64,000 nucleotides of DNA from Prolixibacteraceae bacterium. GTDB taxonomy: Bacteria; Bacteroidota; Bacteroidia; Bacteroidales; Prolixibacteraceae. The notes beneath the pieces are model-generated. The model was not told the DNA's origin, ran no database searches, and was given only the letters and a program-made list of their open reading frames with translations. Positions 8,095-58,584 of the stretch are shown here, piece by piece. Location of the stretch: positions 1 through 64,000 of the forward strand of contig JANXYV010000157.1 in NCBI GenBank assembly GCA_025355875.1, written 5' to 3'. The translations under genes were made by a program, and so were the position numbers. Positions within the stretch are counted from its first letter, which is position 1. The number at the start of each line of letters is the position of its first letter.

Positions 8095-8595
8095 TTAGAA
8101 TATTTTTACCAGTTCTTCGGTAATTGCATATACCACGGGGCAAATCCGGCAATTCTTGTGTGTCAGGTTCAAGATCTGATACATGCGTTTGCGGTCGGTG
8201 TGCGGGTATTCGCGGCAAGCTTTTGGCCGATCTTCATATACCATGCAGTAGTTGTCCGACATCAGGAACGGACAAGGCGTTTGTTTGAAAACGTAATCGT
8301 TGTCTTCGTCGATGTAGAGGTATCCGGAAATAAAGTCAACCGGTTTCATTTTCAGCCGTTTGGCCATTCGTTCAGCGTCTTTTTCCGTAACAACCGGACT
8401 GATTGTCGAGCAGCAGTTGGCACAACTGAGGCAATCGAATTGATCGAAAGCTTCATCATGCAGCTCATGGATGAAACCATCCAGGTTTTTTGGCTTCTTT
8501 GCTTTCAGTTTTTTGAACAAAGCTGTGAATTCCTGACGGCGGTTATTGGTTTGTTCGTTCAGTTTTTCAGGCCTGATATATGGGATTTGATCCAT
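8095..8595 (-). CDS. YkgJ-family cysteine cluster protein
   Basis: 166 residues. The zinc/iron-chelating YkgJ motif is visible: CLSCANCC at about residues 55-62, then TPCPFL, the C in DNYCMVYEDRPKACREYP, and a C-terminal KNCRICP. The regularly spaced Cys residues are thought to bind a metal or Fe-S cluster; no reaction is known for most members. The start codon lies 29 bp inside the 3' end of the upstream EamA transporter gene on the same strand, so translation is probably coupled. A second YkgJ-type protein of different spacing is encoded at 59661-60278. Confidence 0.85.
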   Translation of the reverse strand: MDQIPYIRPEKLNEQTNNRRQEFTALFKKLKAKKPKNLDGFIHELHDEAFDQFDCLSCANCCSTISPVVTEKDAERMAKRLKMKPVDFISGYLYIDEDNDYVFKQTPCPFLMSDNYCMVYEDRPKACREYPHTDRKRMYQILNLTHKNCRICPVVYAITEELVKIF

Positions 8596-49342: not shown

Positions 49343-49410
49343 AGAGTTTTACTGCGTTTATGTACTGCAAAAATAAGGACTTTTTCGATCTTTTATATAC
49401 CTTTGCCGCC

Positions 49411-49590
49411 GATAAGGTTCCTAATTTTGGGATTAAAAGGGAAACAGGTTATCCGGAGAATCCGGCAATTCCTGTACAGTTCCCGCTGCTGTGATTCCTG
49501 TACAACTCTTTCACGAAGAACCACTGTTGGCCATCCGGCTGACGGGAAGGCGTCAAAGAGGGGATAAGTCAGAAGACCTGCCCGATCATG
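49411..49590 (+). promoter_or_regulatory. Adenosylcobalamin riboswitch
   Basis: The leader has the family sequence blocks in order: GGTTCC followed by GGGATTAAAAGGGAAACAGG, AATCCGGCAATTCCTG, CCCGCTGCTGTG, then CACTG, GGCCATCCGGCTGACGGGAAG, GGGATAAGTCAGAAGACCTG. The last one is the B12 box (AGTCAGAAGACCTGCC; consensus AGYCMGGARACCTGCC). The stretch is on the + strand directly before the three-gene B12 uptake unit. B12 binding normally lowers expression of transport genes. Covariation could not be computed, but the primary motifs are distinctive. Confidence 0.93.
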
Positions 49591-49660
49591 TATGGATTTT
49601 GACGCTTTCGGAGAAAAAGCATAAAACCGTGTAATCTTTTCAATTTTCATTCCTGAAAAG

Positions 49661-49700
49661 CTGCAAAATCCAATTCCTAATTAAGATTTTACAGCAGATG
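49661..49700 (+). promoter_or_regulatory. Candidate riboswitch expression platform (start-site hairpin)
   Basis: CTGCAAAATC (49661-49670) can pair with GATTTTACAG (49685-49694) with one G-T pair. The hairpin ends three bases before the ATG at 49698, so its formation could hide the start region. How it couples to the riboswitch is inference. Confidence 0.5.
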
Positions 49701-52124
49701 TTTCAAAGTAAAAACATTTATCAAAACCTTCCCGGAATCATGCTCATTTTGCTGGCATGGAACTCTGATGCACAGTTTGCATCGAAGGTGATTGATTTTA
49801 CACCAGCACCTGGACAATATACCAATGCCGATTTTTTAGGCACACCTTCAGCAGCTAATTCAATTGTTGGTACAAACAAGGGAATGGTTAGTCTGGGTGC
49901 TTTTGGCGGATCAATCACAGTGTATTTCGAACATGGAATTCACAATGATCCGGCCAATCCTTATGGCGTCGATTTCACCGTTTACGGAAATGCCACTCCA
50001 ACCTGGTCGGAGCCGGGAATTATTCAGGTGATGAAAGATGAAAACGGAAATGGAATTCCTGACGAAACCTGGTACGAAATCGCCGGAAGCGACCATTTCT
50101 GGAATACAACCAATTTATCGTATGAAGTCACTTATCAGAATAGCGGTCTGAACTTTGCGAGTAATATTCAATGGACAGATAATCAGGGCAAATCCGGGTT
50201 CATTCCCGTAAACAGTTTCCATCAGCAACCGTATTATCCCAAACCTGATCTGTTTCCCGAAGTTTCAACCGACCACTATACGTTGAAAGGTACCCGGATC
50301 GCAGGGCAAATCGATTTATCAAACCCCGGAGTGGTGAATTCCTACCACCGGGCATTCGGATATGCTGATAACACTCCGGTACTTTCTTATACTGAAAAAT
50401 TGCCTGATAATCCATATACGCCTGAAATTGAAGGAAGCGGAGGTGATGCCATAGATATTGGCTGGGCGGTTGACAAGGATAGAAAACCAGTACATCTCGA
50501 TGAAATTCATTTTATCCGGATTTATACCGGAATGAACGCACTGGCAGGCTGGCTGGGCGAAATATCGACTGAAGTGACCGGAATCCGCGATGTTGAACCT
50601 GCCACAGTTACTGGCGTCCATTCGATGGTTGTGATTCAGGATTTGCCGACTAAAATCAGGCTTGGTGAATCACTCAATCTGAATGCCATTGCTTTTGAAA
50701 GCGGAATCAGGCAGGAAAATACCCCAATAATCTGGACGGTCGATCAGCAGGAACTGGCAGGCATTGAAAACAGTTGGATCATTGCTAAAAAGGATGGCAT
50801 TATTCGGCTTCGCGCAACCTCCGGAGCAAATTCAGAAGTGTTTGCAGAGAAAGAAATTGAGATATTTTCGGCTGCCAAAGCGACAATTACAGTTCCTTCA
50901 ACAAGCTTGAAAATAAATGACAAGATGGATTTGTCCGGAAAACTGACTGATCAAAACGGGAACGCGATTTCAGGAATATCAATCAGTTGGCGAATTGATA
51001 ATGAGAATATTGCGAATATAACAACACTCGATGGAAAATACTTCCTGAACGGAAAACAGACCGGGAAAAGCTGGCTGGTTCTGGAAATTCCGGATATTCC
51101 ATCCCTTCGCGATTCTGTACTCATCGAGGTATTGCCTGAATCTGTCAGGAAGAAAGTTTTTATTTCTGTGAAAACGAGTGAAAAAACGCTCTTGCCGCTG
51201 CATTCGGTTTGGGTCGATCAGGTTGATCTGACTCCATGGGTCGACCGTCACCAAAAATTTTACGGACTTCAGGATATCAAGTTTGTTTCTTTGGCTCATG
51301 CGATTGCCGCTGCCTTCAAAAATACTGACTTGGAAAACGAATGGGCATTCAGAGACGATGCTGAGGGCGGATCAGTCTTGTATCTGTGGAAAGTTCCCGA
51401 AATTGAAGAGGGTTCGACCAGCTTTGATTTTGGATATGGCGGCTCAAGAACTTCAGACGCTTACCGGAAAACATGGATGGTTCTCCTGAATCAGCAACCC
51501 ATTCTTTCAGGTTTCGATCAGGTGAAAGTGAATAATAACGATGAAATACTTGTATATCATGTTATTGACAACGCTTTGCCCTGGCAGGTTACACAACTTG
51601 CTATGAAGAATGATACCGTAAAGACGAACGAATTGATTGAAATACAGCTCCGGAAATATTTTTGTTCGATGGGCGATAACCGCAATGTTTCAGTGAATTC
51701 TTCAGAGGTCATTGCCAATCAGGCGGTGAAACTGATGTCTAAAAATCAGGAAAACAATCCCGTCAGTTTTATGACGGATGAGTTTGGCAAAGTCCTTATA
51801 TCAGAAGAAAATGCAGGTGATTACATGGTGACATCCGGTATTGATGCCGCAAACCTAGCGGTTGAATCAGCAACCGGAATCAAAGCTTTGGCAAATAATC
51901 CATTGATCTGTAAGGTTTTTCCCAATCCATTTTCTGAAAAATTCCGGATACAATGTGTTTTCCCGATCACATCAATCGAAATCCATGATCCGCAAGGAAA
52001 ACTGGTCTTTCATCAAACCGGACTTTCACCCGAAGTGAATTTAACTACCATTTCATCAGGAGTTTACATTTTAAGCATCCATTCAGGGACTCAGGTTTTC
52101 AGGCAAAAAATGATAAAAAATTAG
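49698..52124 (+). CDS. T9SS-exported multidomain surface protein of B12 locus, with transcobalamin-like domain
   Basis: 808 residues. Signal peptide (GIMLILLAWNSDAQ) is followed by a first domain (about 25-310: YTNADFLGTPSAANSIVG, a Ca-binding-like DENGNGIPDETWYE at about 115, and GGDAIDIGWAVD), of the cell-surface protein type that accompanies BtuB genes in Bacteroidota. Two Ig-like segments (about 310-475) follow. Residues 480-640 look like DUF4430, the beta-domain of transcobalamin/intrinsic factor (KTWMVLLNQQPI and VNNNDEILVYHV as the typical G-W-x-x-x-V-N-G and G-D-E-I pattern). The last 75 residues are a T9SS sorting domain (CKVFPNPFSEKFRIQ, then IHDPQGKLV and TISSGVYILSIHSG). Under the riboswitch it probably binds or delivers cobalamin; binding is inferred. 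Confidence 0.78.
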   Translation: MFQSKNIYQNLPGIMLILLAWNSDAQFASKVIDFTPAPGQYTNADFLGTPSAANSIVGTNKGMVSLGAFGGSITVYFEHGIHNDPANPYGVDFTVYGNATPTWSEPGIIQVMKDENGNGIPDETWYEIAGSDHFWNTTNLSYEVTYQNSGLNFASNIQWTDNQGKSGFIPVNSFHQQPYYPKPDLFPEVSTDHYTLKGTRIAGQIDLSNPGVVNSYHRAFGYADNTPVLSYTEKLPDNPYTPEIEGSGGDAIDIGWAVDKDRKPVHLDEIHFIRIYTGMNALAGWLGEISTEVTGIRDVEPATVTGVHSMVVIQDLPTKIRLGESLNLNAIAFESGIRQENTPIIWTVDQQELAGIENSWIIAKKDGIIRLRATSGANSEVFAEKEIEIFSAAKATITVPSTSLKINDKMDLSGKLTDQNGNAISGISISWRIDNENIANITTLDGKYFLNGKQTGKSWLVLEIPDIPSLRDSVLIEVLPESVRKKVFISVKTSEKTLLPLHSVWVDQVDLTPWVDRHQKFYGLQDIKFVSLAHAIAAAFKNTDLENEWAFRDDAEGGSVLYLWKVPEIEEGSTSFDFGYGGSRTSDAYRKTWMVLLNQQPILSGFDQVKVNNNDEILVYHVIDNALPWQVTQLAMKNDTVKTNELIEIQLRKYFCSMGDNRNVSVNSSEVIANQAVKLMSKNQENNPVSFMTDEFGKVLISEENAGDYMVTSGIDAANLAVESATGIKALANNPLICKVFPNPFSEKFRIQCVFPITSIEIHDPQGKLVFHQTGLSPEVNLTTISSGVYILSIHSGTQVFRQKMIKN

Positions 52125-52128
52125 TCCA

Positions 52129-54120
52129 TTGAAATCAGCAAAGGAAAACCATTCAGAAGTTAAGTTCAAAGTATTGCTTTGTATGGTTATCCTTTTTATT
52201 TATTCTGAAAGTGTTAAATCACAGAAGCTTACTGATACAATACCGCTTCACGAAGTGCGGGTTTATGGCGTCCGCAACCTGGCACAGGCAGGACTTCAGG
52301 TCAACCGCATCGATACCCTTGCCTTGCAGATGATGAAAACCCAAACCATTTCGGAGTTACTGAGTTTCTATTCGCCCATATTTATAAAATCGTACGGTCG
52401 GGGTTCTACGGCGTCCGCATCGTTTCGGGGAACCGCTCCTTCGCACACACAGCTCTACTGGAACGGCATCAAATTGAATTCGCCCATGCGCGGCGAGGTC
52501 GATTTCTCGATGTTTCCGGTGTATTTTATTGATGATATCAGCATTTTACCGGGCGGAAGTTCACTCCAATCGGGTTCAGGCGCTTTGGGCGGAACCGTGT
52601 TAATCAACAACCTACCTGACTGGAACTGTCGGCTGAACATCCGGTACATACAGACTATCGAGAGTTTTTCAACTTCTAAGGAATATCTGAATGTTGGGTT
52701 TGGAAACCGCAAAATCCAGTTTAAAACCCGTCTGTTTTCGGAACAAAGCAAAAACGATTTTTCATATTACAATTATGGTGTTTTGCCAATGTATGAAACC
52801 GTTCAGAAGAATGCGGCTTTTAACAAAAAAGGTTTACTTCAGGAAGTTTATTCCCGCCTCAAAAATCATCTTTTTTCAGCAAAAGTGTGGGCAACCCGCA
52901 GCCATCGCGACTTACCTCAGCTTATGTCGTTCGAAGGCGAGTCAAGGACTGAAACTCAGGAGGACCAAAATCTCCGGACAATCCTTTCGTGGAAGTATTT
53001 GGCCGAAAAAAGCAAATTGGAATGGATCGGTGGATTGAATTTCAATAAATTGCACTATTTCAGGGCAAGCAGCGAGGCCAATTTTGTGAATTTCGACAGC
53101 CAAAGCAAAGAGAGCAGTTACACGAGCCAATTCAGTTATGACTGGAAACCCAAAGAGGCTTTCAGCTTCAACTGGGCCTTGAATGCAGCTTATGATCGGG
53201 TGTCTGTTTACGAACAGGTTCAGAAAACTGGCTACGACAAAGATCGTTTGTCAGTCTCTCTCCTGAATGCCGCCCATTGCCAGCCACTTCCTGAAGTATC
53301 ACTTTCGTTATTAATTCGCAGTGAATTGTATGACAGTAATTTAATTGGATTTATTCCATCGTTAGGGATTGAATATTCGCCCGATAAAAAGCAGCAAAAC
53401 CTGTTTAAAATGAATCTTTCACGCAATTATCACCAACCGGGTTTAAATGATTTGTACTGGATTCCGGGAGGAAATCCAAATCTGAAGCCGGAAAAAGGAT
53501 TTGCCGCTGATTTAAGCTATGGTTATTCATTCAGGAACGAAAAAACTATGTTTTCGGCTCAGGCAACCGGTTTCGCATCCAAAATTGACGATTGGATCGT
53601 TTGGCAGCCCTCGGCTTCCGGAGCATCTTACTGGGAGGCCAGCAACCTTCGGCAAGTTATGGTAAAAGGCGCCGAGTTTCAGGTTTCTTGGCAATCGAAT
53701 ATTGCGAATACGGTTCTTGTCAATCTGAGAGGCAATTATTCGTACACCGCCACTTCCAACATGGATGCGGTTCCGTCGGTAGACGAGTCGCGAGGTAAAC
53801 AGCTGATTTACATTCCAAAAAATAAGGCAAACATTTTTGGTGAAGCCGACTATCGGGATTTTTATCTGAAAATTGATGCTCCATTTACGGGTAAGCGTTA
53901 CACTTCAAGCAACAATGTGGAATCGGACTATGAAAAGGTGCTGAATCCATACTGGCTGATCAATCTGAGTGCAGGGAAAAGGTTTAATTTTAAACCTGTG
54001 CAAGTGGATGCTTCGCTGAACGTTGAAAACCTGGCTAACACCGATTATATGGCTATTCTGTGGCGGCCAATGCCCGGAAGATATTATTCTTTAACCATTC
54101 AATTTCAACACAGAAGGTGA
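52129..54120 (+). CDS. btuB: TonB-dependent cobalamin receptor, BtuB-like
   Basis: 663 residues starting at TTG 52129, 4 bp after the previous stop; no ATG fits the signal peptide better (LLCMVILFIYSESVKSQ). A TonB-box-like IPLHEVRVYG is followed by the plug domain (SELLSFYSPIFIKSYGRGSTASASFRGTAPSHTQLYWNGIKL, then ISILPGGSSLQSGSGALGGTVLIN) and a 22-strand barrel ending NVENLANTDYMAILWRPMPGRYYSLTIQFQH, the usual C-terminal pattern. No carboxypeptidase-regulatory extension, so a BtuB-type rather than SusC-type receptor. Function in B12 uptake is assigned from the riboswitch and neighbours. TonB-energised, outer membrane. Confidence 0.87.
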   Translation: MKSAKENHSEVKFKVLLCMVILFIYSESVKSQKLTDTIPLHEVRVYGVRNLAQAGLQVNRIDTLALQMMKTQTISELLSFYSPIFIKSYGRGSTASASFRGTAPSHTQLYWNGIKLNSPMRGEVDFSMFPVYFIDDISILPGGSSLQSGSGALGGTVLINNLPDWNCRLNIRYIQTIESFSTSKEYLNVGFGNRKIQFKTRLFSEQSKNDFSYYNYGVLPMYETVQKNAAFNKKGLLQEVYSRLKNHLFSAKVWATRSHRDLPQLMSFEGESRTETQEDQNLRTILSWKYLAEKSKLEWIGGLNFNKLHYFRASSEANFVNFDSQSKESSYTSQFSYDWKPKEAFSFNWALNAAYDRVSVYEQVQKTGYDKDRLSVSLLNAAHCQPLPEVSLSLLIRSELYDSNLIGFIPSLGIEYSPDKKQQNLFKMNLSRNYHQPGLNDLYWIPGGNPNLKPEKGFAADLSYGYSFRNEKTMFSAQATGFASKIDDWIVWQPSASGASYWEASNLRQVMVKGAEFQVSWQSNIANTVLVNLRGNYSYTATSNMDAVPSVDESRGKQLIYIPKNKANIFGEADYRDFYLKIDAPFTGKRYTSSNNVESDYEKVLNPYWLINLSAGKRFNFKPVQVDASLNVENLANTDYMAILWRPMPGRYYSLTIQFQHRR

Positions 54121-54203
54121 AAACAAAAAGGAAAGAGGACGACGGAAAGGGAGAAAAGTCATTAGTCATTCCCAATCCTGACTTCATAGTGGGACGAATA
54201 GTG

Positions 54204-55364
54204 ATGAAAAGAATTCAGTCATTCGGAAATTCTCTGAAAATATTTTTTCTAATGCCCTATGACTTTTTACTTTCCGTTCTGAAAGGACGAATTGGAAAGT
54301 CCCTGGTTTTACTCGGAATCTTGCTTTTTTCTTGTTCGAAAAACCCTGTGGATACCGTGTTTTTTGATTTCACAGGGAATCGGGGTGTGTATATTGTCAA
54401 TCAGGGGAATTTTATGTACGGAAATTCATCCTTGTCTTTTTATGACCCTGCATCAAAAAGGGTATATAATCAGGTTTTTCAGGCCAGGAATGGCGTCCCT
54501 CTGGGCGACGTAGCAGAATCCATGACCATCTGGAAAAACCTGGGTTTTATTGTGGTCAACAATTCCGGGAAAATCTATGTGATTGACTCGCGAACTGCCG
54601 AATTTAAAGGCAGTATTACCGGTTTAAGTTCACCAAGGTACGTGCATGTTATCAATCCTGAAAAAGCGTATGTCACGGATCTGTTTGCCCATAAAATCAC
54701 GATTTTTAATCCACAGACTTTTCAGGTCACTGGCCATATTCCGGTCAATAATTCCAAGTCAGAATTTAATCAGCATCCCACCGAGCAAATGGTTCAGTAT
54801 AAAAATCAGGTTTTCACCAACTGCTGGTCGTACGACAATAAAATACTGGTAATAGACTCAAATACTGATCATCTGATTGATTCAATTGAAGTGTTTAAAC
54901 AACCAAACAGTATGGTTATTGACCGGGGAAATAAAATTTGGGTATTGACTGACGGAGGTTTTGAGGGAAGTCAGTTTGGTTATGAAAAACCGGGCTTGCT
55001 TAAAATTGATGCCGAAACTCATGAAATTGAGCGGACATTTCGCTTCGAATTGGGCGAACATCCGCTGAGCCTTTCCATCAATTCAACCAAAGATACCCTG
55101 TATTATATCAATGGGCATGTCTGGAAAATGGCAATCTCCGAAAAGCATCTTCCGGAAAGTCCATTCATTCAATCGGAATATACGGATTCGTACGGCGGGT
55201 TCTTCAGTTTAGGAATCGATTCGGTAAGTTCGGAAATTTATGTCGGAGATGCGATTGATCACAGGCAAAATGGAATAGTCTACCGGTATTCTTTGTCCGG
55301 AAAACTCATCGATCAGTTTAAAACCGGAATTTCACCAGGCTCTTTTGCCTTCAAAAAAGAATAG
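54204..55364 (+). CDS. btuG: BtuG-like DUF5074 beta-propeller lipoprotein
   Basis: 386 residues from the ATG at 54204 (an ATG at 54252 is an alternative; upstream sequence overlaps btuB in another frame). Lipobox LLGILLFSC gives a lipoprotein. The body is a YncE/DUF5074-type seven-bladed propeller: repeated blades such as GVYIVNQGNFMYGNSSLSFYDP, KIYVIDSRTAEFKGSITGL, AYVTDLFAHKITIFNPQTF, ILVIDSNTDHLIDSIEVFKQPNSMVIDRGNKIWVLTDGG. BtuG of Bacteroides is such a propeller that captures B12 with very high affinity and sits on BtuB. It is the third gene of the riboswitch-controlled unit. Confidence 0.82.
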   Translation: MKRIQSFGNSLKIFFLMPYDFLLSVLKGRIGKSLVLLGILLFSCSKNPVDTVFFDFTGNRGVYIVNQGNFMYGNSSLSFYDPASKRVYNQVFQARNGVPLGDVAESMTIWKNLGFIVVNNSGKIYVIDSRTAEFKGSITGLSSPRYVHVINPEKAYVTDLFAHKITIFNPQTFQVTGHIPVNNSKSEFNQHPTEQMVQYKNQVFTNCWSYDNKILVIDSNTDHLIDSIEVFKQPNSMVIDRGNKIWVLTDGGFEGSQFGYEKPGLLKIDAETHEIERTFRFELGEHPLSLSINSTKDTLYYINGHVWKMAISEKHLPESPFIQSEYTDSYGGFFSLGIDSVSSEIYVGDAIDHRQNGIVYRYSLSGKLIDQFKTGISPGSFAFKKE

Positions 55365-55372
55365 CTAATCGG

Positions 55373-55837
55373 TTAAAAGATAGGTGCTTCTCGTTTGAAA
55401 GTTTCGTCGAGAGAGATAAATGTCTCGGTACTTGCAATTCCACCTATTTTTTGGATTTTGTCGCTTAGAATATCCCGCAGATGCTCATTATCTTTGGCGT
55501 AAACCTTGACGAAAATAGCGTACTGACCTGTAGTATAATGACATTCAACAATTTCAGGAATTAATTTCAATTGCTCGGCAACTGTTGAATACAAACTGCC
55601 TTTTTCGAGAAAAACGCCAATGTAGGTGCAGGTTTTGAAATCAATTTTCTTGGGATCGATATGGTAACCCGAACCTACAATGACATGCAGGTCGATCATC
55701 CGGTTTACCCTTTGGTGGACTGCCGCCCTGGAAACTCCCACCTCTGAAGCAACATCTTTGAACGGAATACGGGCATTTTTGGAGATGATATCCAGGATGT
55801 TCAGGTCGATATCATCCAGTTGATTTCTTAAAGTCAT
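55373..55837 (-). CDS. Lrp/AsnC-family regulator 1
   Basis: 154 residues. N-terminal HTH (LDDIDLNILDIISKNARIPFKDVASEVGVSRAAVHQRVNRM) and C-terminal RAM domain (VGSGYHIDPKKIDFKTCTYIGVFLEK, then IPEIVECHYTTGQYAIFVKVYAKDNEHL) that binds amino-acid ligands and forms octamers. It ends just past the btuG stop, convergent. It lies 9 bp downstream of a clear paralog, so the pair is one operon. Two such similar regulators may form mixed oligomers. Confidence 0.92.
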   Translation of the reverse strand: MTLRNQLDDIDLNILDIISKNARIPFKDVASEVGVSRAAVHQRVNRMIDLHVIVGSGYHIDPKKIDFKTCTYIGVFLEKGSLYSTVAEQLKLIPEIVECHYTTGQYAIFVKVYAKDNEHLRDILSDKIQKIGGIASTETFISLDETFKREAPIF

Positions 55838-55846
55838 GTCGCTGAT

Positions 55847-56326
55847 TTATTTGATTGGAACCTGCCGTTTGAACTCCATTTCGAGCGAGATAAAGGTCTC
55901 GGTGCGCGCAATTCCTTCAATTTCCTGAAGATCTTCATCAATCAGTTTTTTGAGGTGTTTGTTCGTCTTGGTCTGAACTTTAATAAATATGGCGTAAGAA
56001 CCTGTAGTATAATGACATTCGACAATTTCAGGAATATTGATCAACGCTTCAACAACCTGTTGGTGGAATTTTGCTTTTTCGAGATGGATGCCCATGTAGG
56101 CACAGGTAAAATAGCCTAATTTTTGAGGATTGACAATAAATTCGCTTCCGGAAACAACACCCAGATTCAGCAAACGCTGAACCCGCTGGTGAATTGCGGC
56201 TCCGGAAACGCCACATTCCCGGGCTACTTCCAGGAAAGGTATCCGGGCATTCTTGGTAATGAGTTTCAGGATTTTTTCGTCCAGTTCGTCGATGCTTGGG
56301 AGTGGTTCAATATGCAGATCATTCAT
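55847..56326 (-). CDS. Lrp/AsnC-family regulator 2
   Basis: 159 residues. HTH (IDELDEKILKLITKNARIPFLEVARECGVSGAAIHQRVQRLLNLG) and RAM domain (VSGSEFIVNPQKLGYFTCAYMGIHLEK, IPEIVECHYTTGSYAIFIKV). Extensive identity with the next gene, including VECHYTTG and IARTETFISL blocks, indicates a tandem duplication. The upstream 250 bp leads into a mobile-looking repeat. Ligand and targets unknown. Confidence 0.92.
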   Translation of the reverse strand: MNDLHIEPLPSIDELDEKILKLITKNARIPFLEVARECGVSGAAIHQRVQRLLNLGVVSGSEFIVNPQKLGYFTCAYMGIHLEKAKFHQQVVEALINIPEIVECHYTTGSYAIFIKVQTKTNKHLKKLIDEDLQEIEGIARTETFISLEMEFKRQVPIK

Positions 56327-56533
56327 AATGTAGAGTTCTACTGTCGTTTAAAAATTGAAACGTAAAAGTATAAAAAATTGACAATTTTTAAATATTCTTG
56401 CTGAAAAACATCTCGTTTGTAATGATATGAAAGCATTTCCAGTCAAATCAGGAGAAGTGGGTCATTCAGGAACTTACCGGCGACAGCCATATCAGGTTTT
56501 AGAAATAAATGGGAATCTATAAAATTCTAAATT

Positions 56534-56822: not shown

Positions 56823-58584
<1,762 letters not shown>

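Follow-up and report, generated by a model that had tools for sequence, protein, structure and literature searches.

The A and B regulators separated before Prolixibacteraceae arose

The adjacent AsnC-type regulators A and B, encoded in the window (the whole 64,000-nucleotide stretch of Prolixibacteraceae DNA analyzed here), had already split into two orthologous lineages by the time the family Prolixibacteraceae emerged. On sequence comparison, we think it fairly probable that both are local AsnC-type nitrogen regulators, of which B would be autoregulated and A would ancestrally have controlled the ammonium transporter gene amt. The two genes and the gap between them are as follows:

55373 to 55837, minus strand: regulator A, AsnC-type protein of 154 aa (from its ORF and Pfam domains); its ortholog is the amt-divergent gene in many sister genera
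55838 to 55846, minus strand: gap of 9 nt from the B stop to the A start, too short to hold a terminator or a promoter specific to A
55847 to 56326, minus strand: regulator B, AsnC-type protein of 159 aa (from its ORF and Pfam domains)

Both proteins were full-length, with an AsnC-type HTH (PF13404) followed by an Lrp/AsnC ligand (RAM) domain (PF01037), and the domain matches were above the Pfam cut-offs and far beyond chance. A and B aligned without gaps over 147 aa at 54% identity. The original prediction of two similar, neighboring Lrp/AsnC regulators at 55373 to 56326 was thus confirmed, and the VECHYTTG and TETFISL blocks that it had named were present in both sequences. TETFISL was widespread, occurring in 16/23 class-level homologs of the tree set. 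VECHYTTG was narrower: it was found in 29/30 A and 17/36 B sequences of Prolixibacteraceae and in 3/17 further order-level homologs, but in none of five A orthologs from other families and none of the 23 class-level homologs, 13 of which carried the looser form E-x-[HYF]-[YVA]-TTG.

The top NCBIfam model for both regulators was E. coli AsnC (NF008384; 135.0 bits for A and 138.8 bits for B), and the nearest solved structure by sequence similarity was AsnC 2cg4. Since the equivalog cut-off is 227 bits, assignment to AsnC itself was rejected. Global Lrp (NF008370) was rejected as well; E. coli Lrp belongs to the same superfamily, but A and B scored only 61.9 and 64.1 bits against its cut-off of 233. 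A and B are ordinary members of the Lrp/AsnC family, and the find is mostly an ordinary one. A ligand-domain search of the window's own genome (97.9% complete) returned one match besides A and B, a 91-aa RAM-only protein. This protein lacks an HTH (L003, C205:20238-20453) and adjoins molybdenum-cofactor-like genes, which were named by eye.

The ortholog search covered 61 genomes, the window's own included, and the A query and the B query were each matched in 53. Two genomes of the same genus, G007 (10% contaminated) and G016 (88% complete), gave no match to A or B. A orthologs were 90–96% identical within the genus and 68–79% identical in other Prolixibacteraceae genera; the corresponding values for B were 92–99% and 73–88%. 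Outside the family, A was 60–62% identical to its orthologs in four families (G038, G047, G055, and G059) and 55% identical in a fifth (G057), and B was 61–67% identical to homologs in five families (G042, G043, G050, G052, and G054). A recent duplication had originally been predicted, on the understanding that neither regulator would resemble distant families more closely than it resembles the other; both did. The phylogeny put forward as a check placed A in a clade of 35 of the 112 rows (support 100/99), five of which each came from a different family outside Prolixibacteraceae, and B in a clade of 36 rows (support 100/100), in a main tree whose bootstrap was incompletely settled (correlation 0.987). 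A single clade of window-genus A and B (three A and three B rows) was rejected with a p-AU of 4.8e-7, calculated on the 107 rows that were left once five rows, either long or outgroup, had been dropped. The closer orthologs, the separate clades, and this test led us to reject recent tandem duplication; the duplication is older than the family.

The likely place of the ancestral gene is marked by a neighbor of B:

57334 to 58584, minus strand: mechanosensitive-channel gene, neighbor marking the likely ancestral place of B

Neighborhood counts out of 19 or 61 loci refer to the best 80 of 511 loci, comprising 19 of the window's genus (L064-L082; assigned by B identity of at least 92%) and 61 from other genera; they count loci, many from few genera, and not independent events. 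Among these best 80 of 511, a homolog of the channel gene was upstream of B in 12/19 genus loci and 42/61 other loci. In two relatives, L179 (G043, where no other homolog was found) and L184 (G050, where there is also a second, distant homolog), a lone homolog was located between the channel gene, which elsewhere is next to B, and the SpoU gene, which elsewhere is next to A. This arrangement resembles what would have preceded an in-place tandem duplication, or it may instead reflect loss of one copy. The earlier view that A and B are paralogs was right, and they probably arose by tandem duplication. Both genes are under strong purifying selection, with pN of 0.008–0.049 against pS of 0.64–0.80 in six chosen same-genus loci; the A row of L084 (pN 0.75) was dropped from this range as a length or alignment fault, and the B row of L084, from another genus, had a pN of 0.088 and lies outside it.

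Fixed differences between A and B lie mostly in the HTH

When 30 A and 36 B sequences were compared, 12 positions were fixed for different residues in the two groups (at least 93% within each) and 54 were fixed alike. Of the 12 differences, eight fell in the HTH and two each in the linker and the ligand domain, and the excess in the HTH over the ligand domain was just significant (Fisher p = 0.042). One of the HTH differences is Arg37 of A versus Gly42 of B, in the stretch SRAAVHQRV/SGAAIHQRV. Because the fixed differences are mostly in the HTH, one shared effector with split DNA targets fits better than split ligands, although this evidence is indirect.

This bears on the proposal that A and B duplicated recently, assemble into mixed oligomers, and now differ in ligand. 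Their 54% identity, their common ligand/oligomerization domain, the near confinement of VECHYTTG to orthologs of A and B, and a possible single operon in the window are all consistent with it. RAM-only proteins can also join FFRP oligomers, as in the FL11/DM1 hetero-octamer reported in vitro in the accessible part of PMC2995911. However, the tree and the p-AU test place the split before Prolixibacteraceae, and the eight HTH differences against two in the ligand domain do not favor ligand divergence, so we consider this explanation doubtful.

The amt gene goes with A

The amt product is a PF00909 protein. Among the 61 non-genus loci of the best 80 of 511, A was within 3 kb after B in 35 and absent from that interval despite room in 20, and six loci were too short. 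In 27 of these 61 loci amt was between B and A and pointed away from A; B and A were adjacent without amt between them in eight, and amt directly followed B in three short loci. Where B stood alone outside the genus, amt never followed it (0/20 loci, best 80 of 511). When each of the 14 other genera of the family was represented by one genome, amt was divergent from A in seven (G024, G025, G026, G029, G030, G032, and G036). Draconibacterium and Maribellus are among the genera that have retained amt. Seven loci in which A is apart from B were fetched; amt was still divergent from A in four of them (G005, G024, G025, and G029), including G005, a species of the window's own genus, and A was without amt in the other three. 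Since amt is kept with a separate A and by no lone B, we conclude that amt goes with A.

The window's genome contained three Amt genes, none of which was near the A/B pair. Two of them (L258, C128 and L259, C76) adjoined small genes that looked PII-like by eye. In a Mariniphaga contig (L109:8511-8801), the amt between B and A was only a 97-aa open frame, possibly from amt decay or an assembly fault.

Conserved palindromes precede B

A palindrome, TTACAAaTTGTAA, was found de novo before B, at sites separated by 31 and 41 bp. Palindromic expectation-maximization on the 160 bp preceding B, run for 44 non-genus loci, gave nTTACAAaTTGTAAn, with a log-likelihood of 154.7 compared with 34–38 in four nulls. 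The B matrix was trained on other genera only, and the window's genus was held out. In this held-out genus, the best site reached p ≤ 0.05 in 15/20 B promoters, a count that includes the window and near-duplicates, and in 3/4 after near-duplicate removal. The sites predicted in the window were the following:

56347 to 56361, minus strand: predicted B-type operator 1, GTTTCAATTTTTAAA (p = 0.01 versus shuffles)
56363 to 56370, minus strand: putative promoter-like element, TACTTTTA (read from the sequence)
56378 to 56392, minus strand: predicted B-type operator 2, TTTAAAAATTGTCAA (31 bp from operator 1)
56419 to 56433, minus strand: predicted B-type operator 3, CTTTCATATCATTAC (41 bp from operator 2)

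Spacings between B sites of 31, 41, and 72 bp accounted for 16, 12, and 15 of 57, i.e., 43/57 with training loci included. Controls used at most 25 loci per control gene. In non-genus control promoters, the B matrix reached p ≤ 0.05 in 2/25 for ABCF, 2/25 for M64, 1/25 for MSC, 2/25 for SPOU, and 4/24 for amt; the corresponding figure was 3/55 in window-genus control promoters and 4/23 in A-amt regions. Scores in non-genus B promoters (44/46), A-amt regions (18/22), and amt promoters (18/24) are essentially those of training data. The palindromes upstream of B are conserved sites, although this motif, like the A-type one below, could be that of another regulator. Scans for sigma-70-type promoters gave little, and such models do not cover promoters of this phylum; TACTTTTA before B resembles the Bacteroidota -7 box, TAnnTTTG. 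At the sequence level, the clustered 15-bp palindromes, with three predicted sites before B, are of the kind expected for Lrp/AsnC (FFRP) operators. In the accessible portions of PMC2995911 and PMC8707732, the family is described as binding imperfect palindromes of 13–17 bp with periodicities of 30–31 bp, features with which the palindrome size and the 31-bp spacing found here agree.

In the window genus, A directly followed B in 18/19 loci (best 80 of 511). The B-A gap in these 18 loci was 19–30 nt in nine, 160–208 nt in eight, and 779 nt in one, with the lengths in L075, L080, and L103 resting on corrected ORF starts. With only 9 nt between B and A in the window, A is probably under the promoter of B and co-transcribed with it. 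In L065, the sole long-gap locus scanned, a 15-pair terminator-like stem was observed after B (8501-8534).

A related palindrome occurs upstream of amt and mdh

In the A-amt intergenic regions (20 after near-duplicate removal), the palindrome TTATCAAaTTGATAA was found de novo, with a likelihood of 68.6 versus 25.8–30.6 in six nulls. This A-type motif and the B-type motif have a common CAAnTTG core. The A matrix matched 1/25 control promoters each for ABCF, M64, and SPOU and 5/25 B promoters; in window-genus B-A gaps, the A matrix matched 1/7 and the B matrix 2/9. The A matrix also matched 6/25 non-genus mechanosensitive-channel promoters, which was above the other controls.

Exact A-type palindromes were not enriched genome-wide in 80 genomes (32 versus 45 in the reversed control). 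In the window's own genome, there were two exact copies versus none in the control, and seven with at most one mismatch versus 17. One exact genome-wide match is located between A and amt (G264, L239), and one of the two exact copies in the own genome is upstream of mdh (L224, C38:3372-3386), a malate dehydrogenase gene named from its sequence and not by a library. A TTA[CT]CAAATTGTTAA-like palindrome approximately 100 bp upstream of mdh matched the A matrix (p ≤ 0.04) in 18/21 genus loci (L224, L263-L282, and L289). An A-matrix match was also present upstream of mdh, at varying distance, in 11/26 other loci of the family; the two order-level loci that were read lacked it. These matches raise the possibility that mdh is a second target of A.

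The same sites can be read differently: the palindromes upstream of amt and mdh could belong to an unrelated regulator, with A and B being Lrp-like and having no special nitrogen role. The frequency of the mdh matches (18/21 and 11/26), the lack of genome-wide enrichment of the exact motif, and the mdh site of G016, a genome in which A and B were not found, are all in keeping with this. Yet both motif types are built around CAAnTTG, as expected of paralogous regulators, and the amt linkage tracks A rather than B. We regard an unrelated regulator as rather unlikely and retain local control of amt by A as the preferred interpretation.

The B12 unit is probably a genus-level neighbor

The original prediction placed the pair next to B12 genes on which it converges. 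The relevant neighbors in the window, both outside the A/B system, are as follows:

49398 to 49599, plus strand: cobalamin riboswitch heading the B12 unit
54060 to 55364, plus strand: DUF5074 beta-propeller gene, last of the B12 unit and convergent with A

The unit at 49398-55364 on the plus strand, likely a B12-uptake unit, comprises the riboswitch, a surface protein that ends in a type IX secretion tail, a TonB receptor resembling BtuB, and the DUF5074 beta-propeller. The convergence was confirmed: the stop codons of A and the DUF5074 gene face each other 8 bp apart. The DUF5074/BtuB-like/surface-protein unit faced A in 15/19 window-genus loci (best 80 of 511); of the four loci without it, L082 has no A near B, L074 and L078 end near A, and L072 has other genes downstream. 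The unit was beside A in none of the 61 non-genus loci (best 80 of 511), of which 35 have A in view and 32 extend at least 1.5 kb past A. The arrangement is probably a later, genus-level one. A and B are on the opposite strand from the unit, which among these 80 loci adjoins A only in the window genus, so they are not counted as part of a cobalamin-uptake system.

The adjacency and convergence in 15 of the 19 genus loci would nevertheless suit a pair that regulates the B12 unit by sensing cobalamin-dependent metabolism, e.g., methionine. Against this, genes in convergent orientation do not share a promoter, a cobalamin riboswitch already heads the unit, and the adjacency was found in none of the 61 non-genus loci. 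The promoters of the unit also scored like controls with both matrices (B matrix: SURF 0/9, BTUB 0/6, and DUF5074 0/3; A matrix: SURF 1/9, BTUB 0/6, and DUF5074 0/3). On the riboswitch, the genus-only adjacency, and the control-level scores, B12 regulation by A and B was rejected, and we hold it to be highly improbable. The original description of the link as unproven was right.

Discussion

A close known counterpart of A and B is E. coli AsnC (asnC-asnA), which has the same HTH and ligand domain, the TTGxY block, the best curated model, and the best solved structure. The accessible portions of PMC2995911 and PMC8707732 describe local FFRPs that are divergent from their targets, AsnC among them, and a locally acting, self-regulated regulator beside a divergent target is an AsnC feature (PMC8707732). 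A and B differ from AsnC in scoring 135/139 bits, below its 227-bit equivalog cut-off, in having amt as the divergent neighbor in the relatives of A, and in being two paralogs instead of one. A haloarchaeal Lrp beside glnA (Haloferax and Halobacterium) likewise adjoins an ammonium-assimilation gene; that system is archaeal and involves glutamine synthetase instead of a transporter, and the accessible part of its source describes no such paralog pair (PMC8229911). As far as the available part of PMC8707732 goes, PA2577-PA2576 of Pseudomonas aeruginosa resembles the A-amt arrangement in that an FFRP is divergent from a transporter gene under its control, but the transporter is of the EamA type and the operon partner is an acetyltransferase, not a second FFRP. 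A literature search on AsnC/Lrp with ammonium in Bacteroidetes/Bacteroides found no described Bacteroidota AsnC-amt system.

We propose that one ancestral AsnC-type regulator, probably located between the mechanosensitive-channel gene and the SpoU rRNA-methyltransferase gene, as single-gene relatives suggest, was duplicated, and that its A and B lines were separate before Prolixibacteraceae. B would regulate itself by binding three phased 15-bp palindromes that overlie its promoter. The ancestral job of A would have been local control of the divergent amt through a related palindrome. The effector would most likely be an amino acid that reports nitrogen supply, e.g., asparagine or glutamine, as the relationship to AsnC suggests. 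In most of the window's genus, amt is absent from the locus, and past A lies an unrelated B12 unit controlled by a riboswitch; the window likewise no longer has amt at this locus, and there A probably belongs to the operon of B.

A more ambitious version, to which we give limited credence, is a Bacteroidota-specific two-regulator nitrogen switch. One ligand pocket would have been kept while DNA recognition was split (nTTACAAaTTGTAAn for B and TTATCAAaTTGATAA for A); A would link amt to mdh, B would set the dose of both, and the genes in the window would form one self-regulated operon after the loss of amt from the locus.

These results replace a guess about B12 with a testable nitrogen hypothesis and supply two concrete operator candidates for paralogs whose differences fall chiefly in the DNA-binding half, a clean case for how a regulator pair splits its targets.
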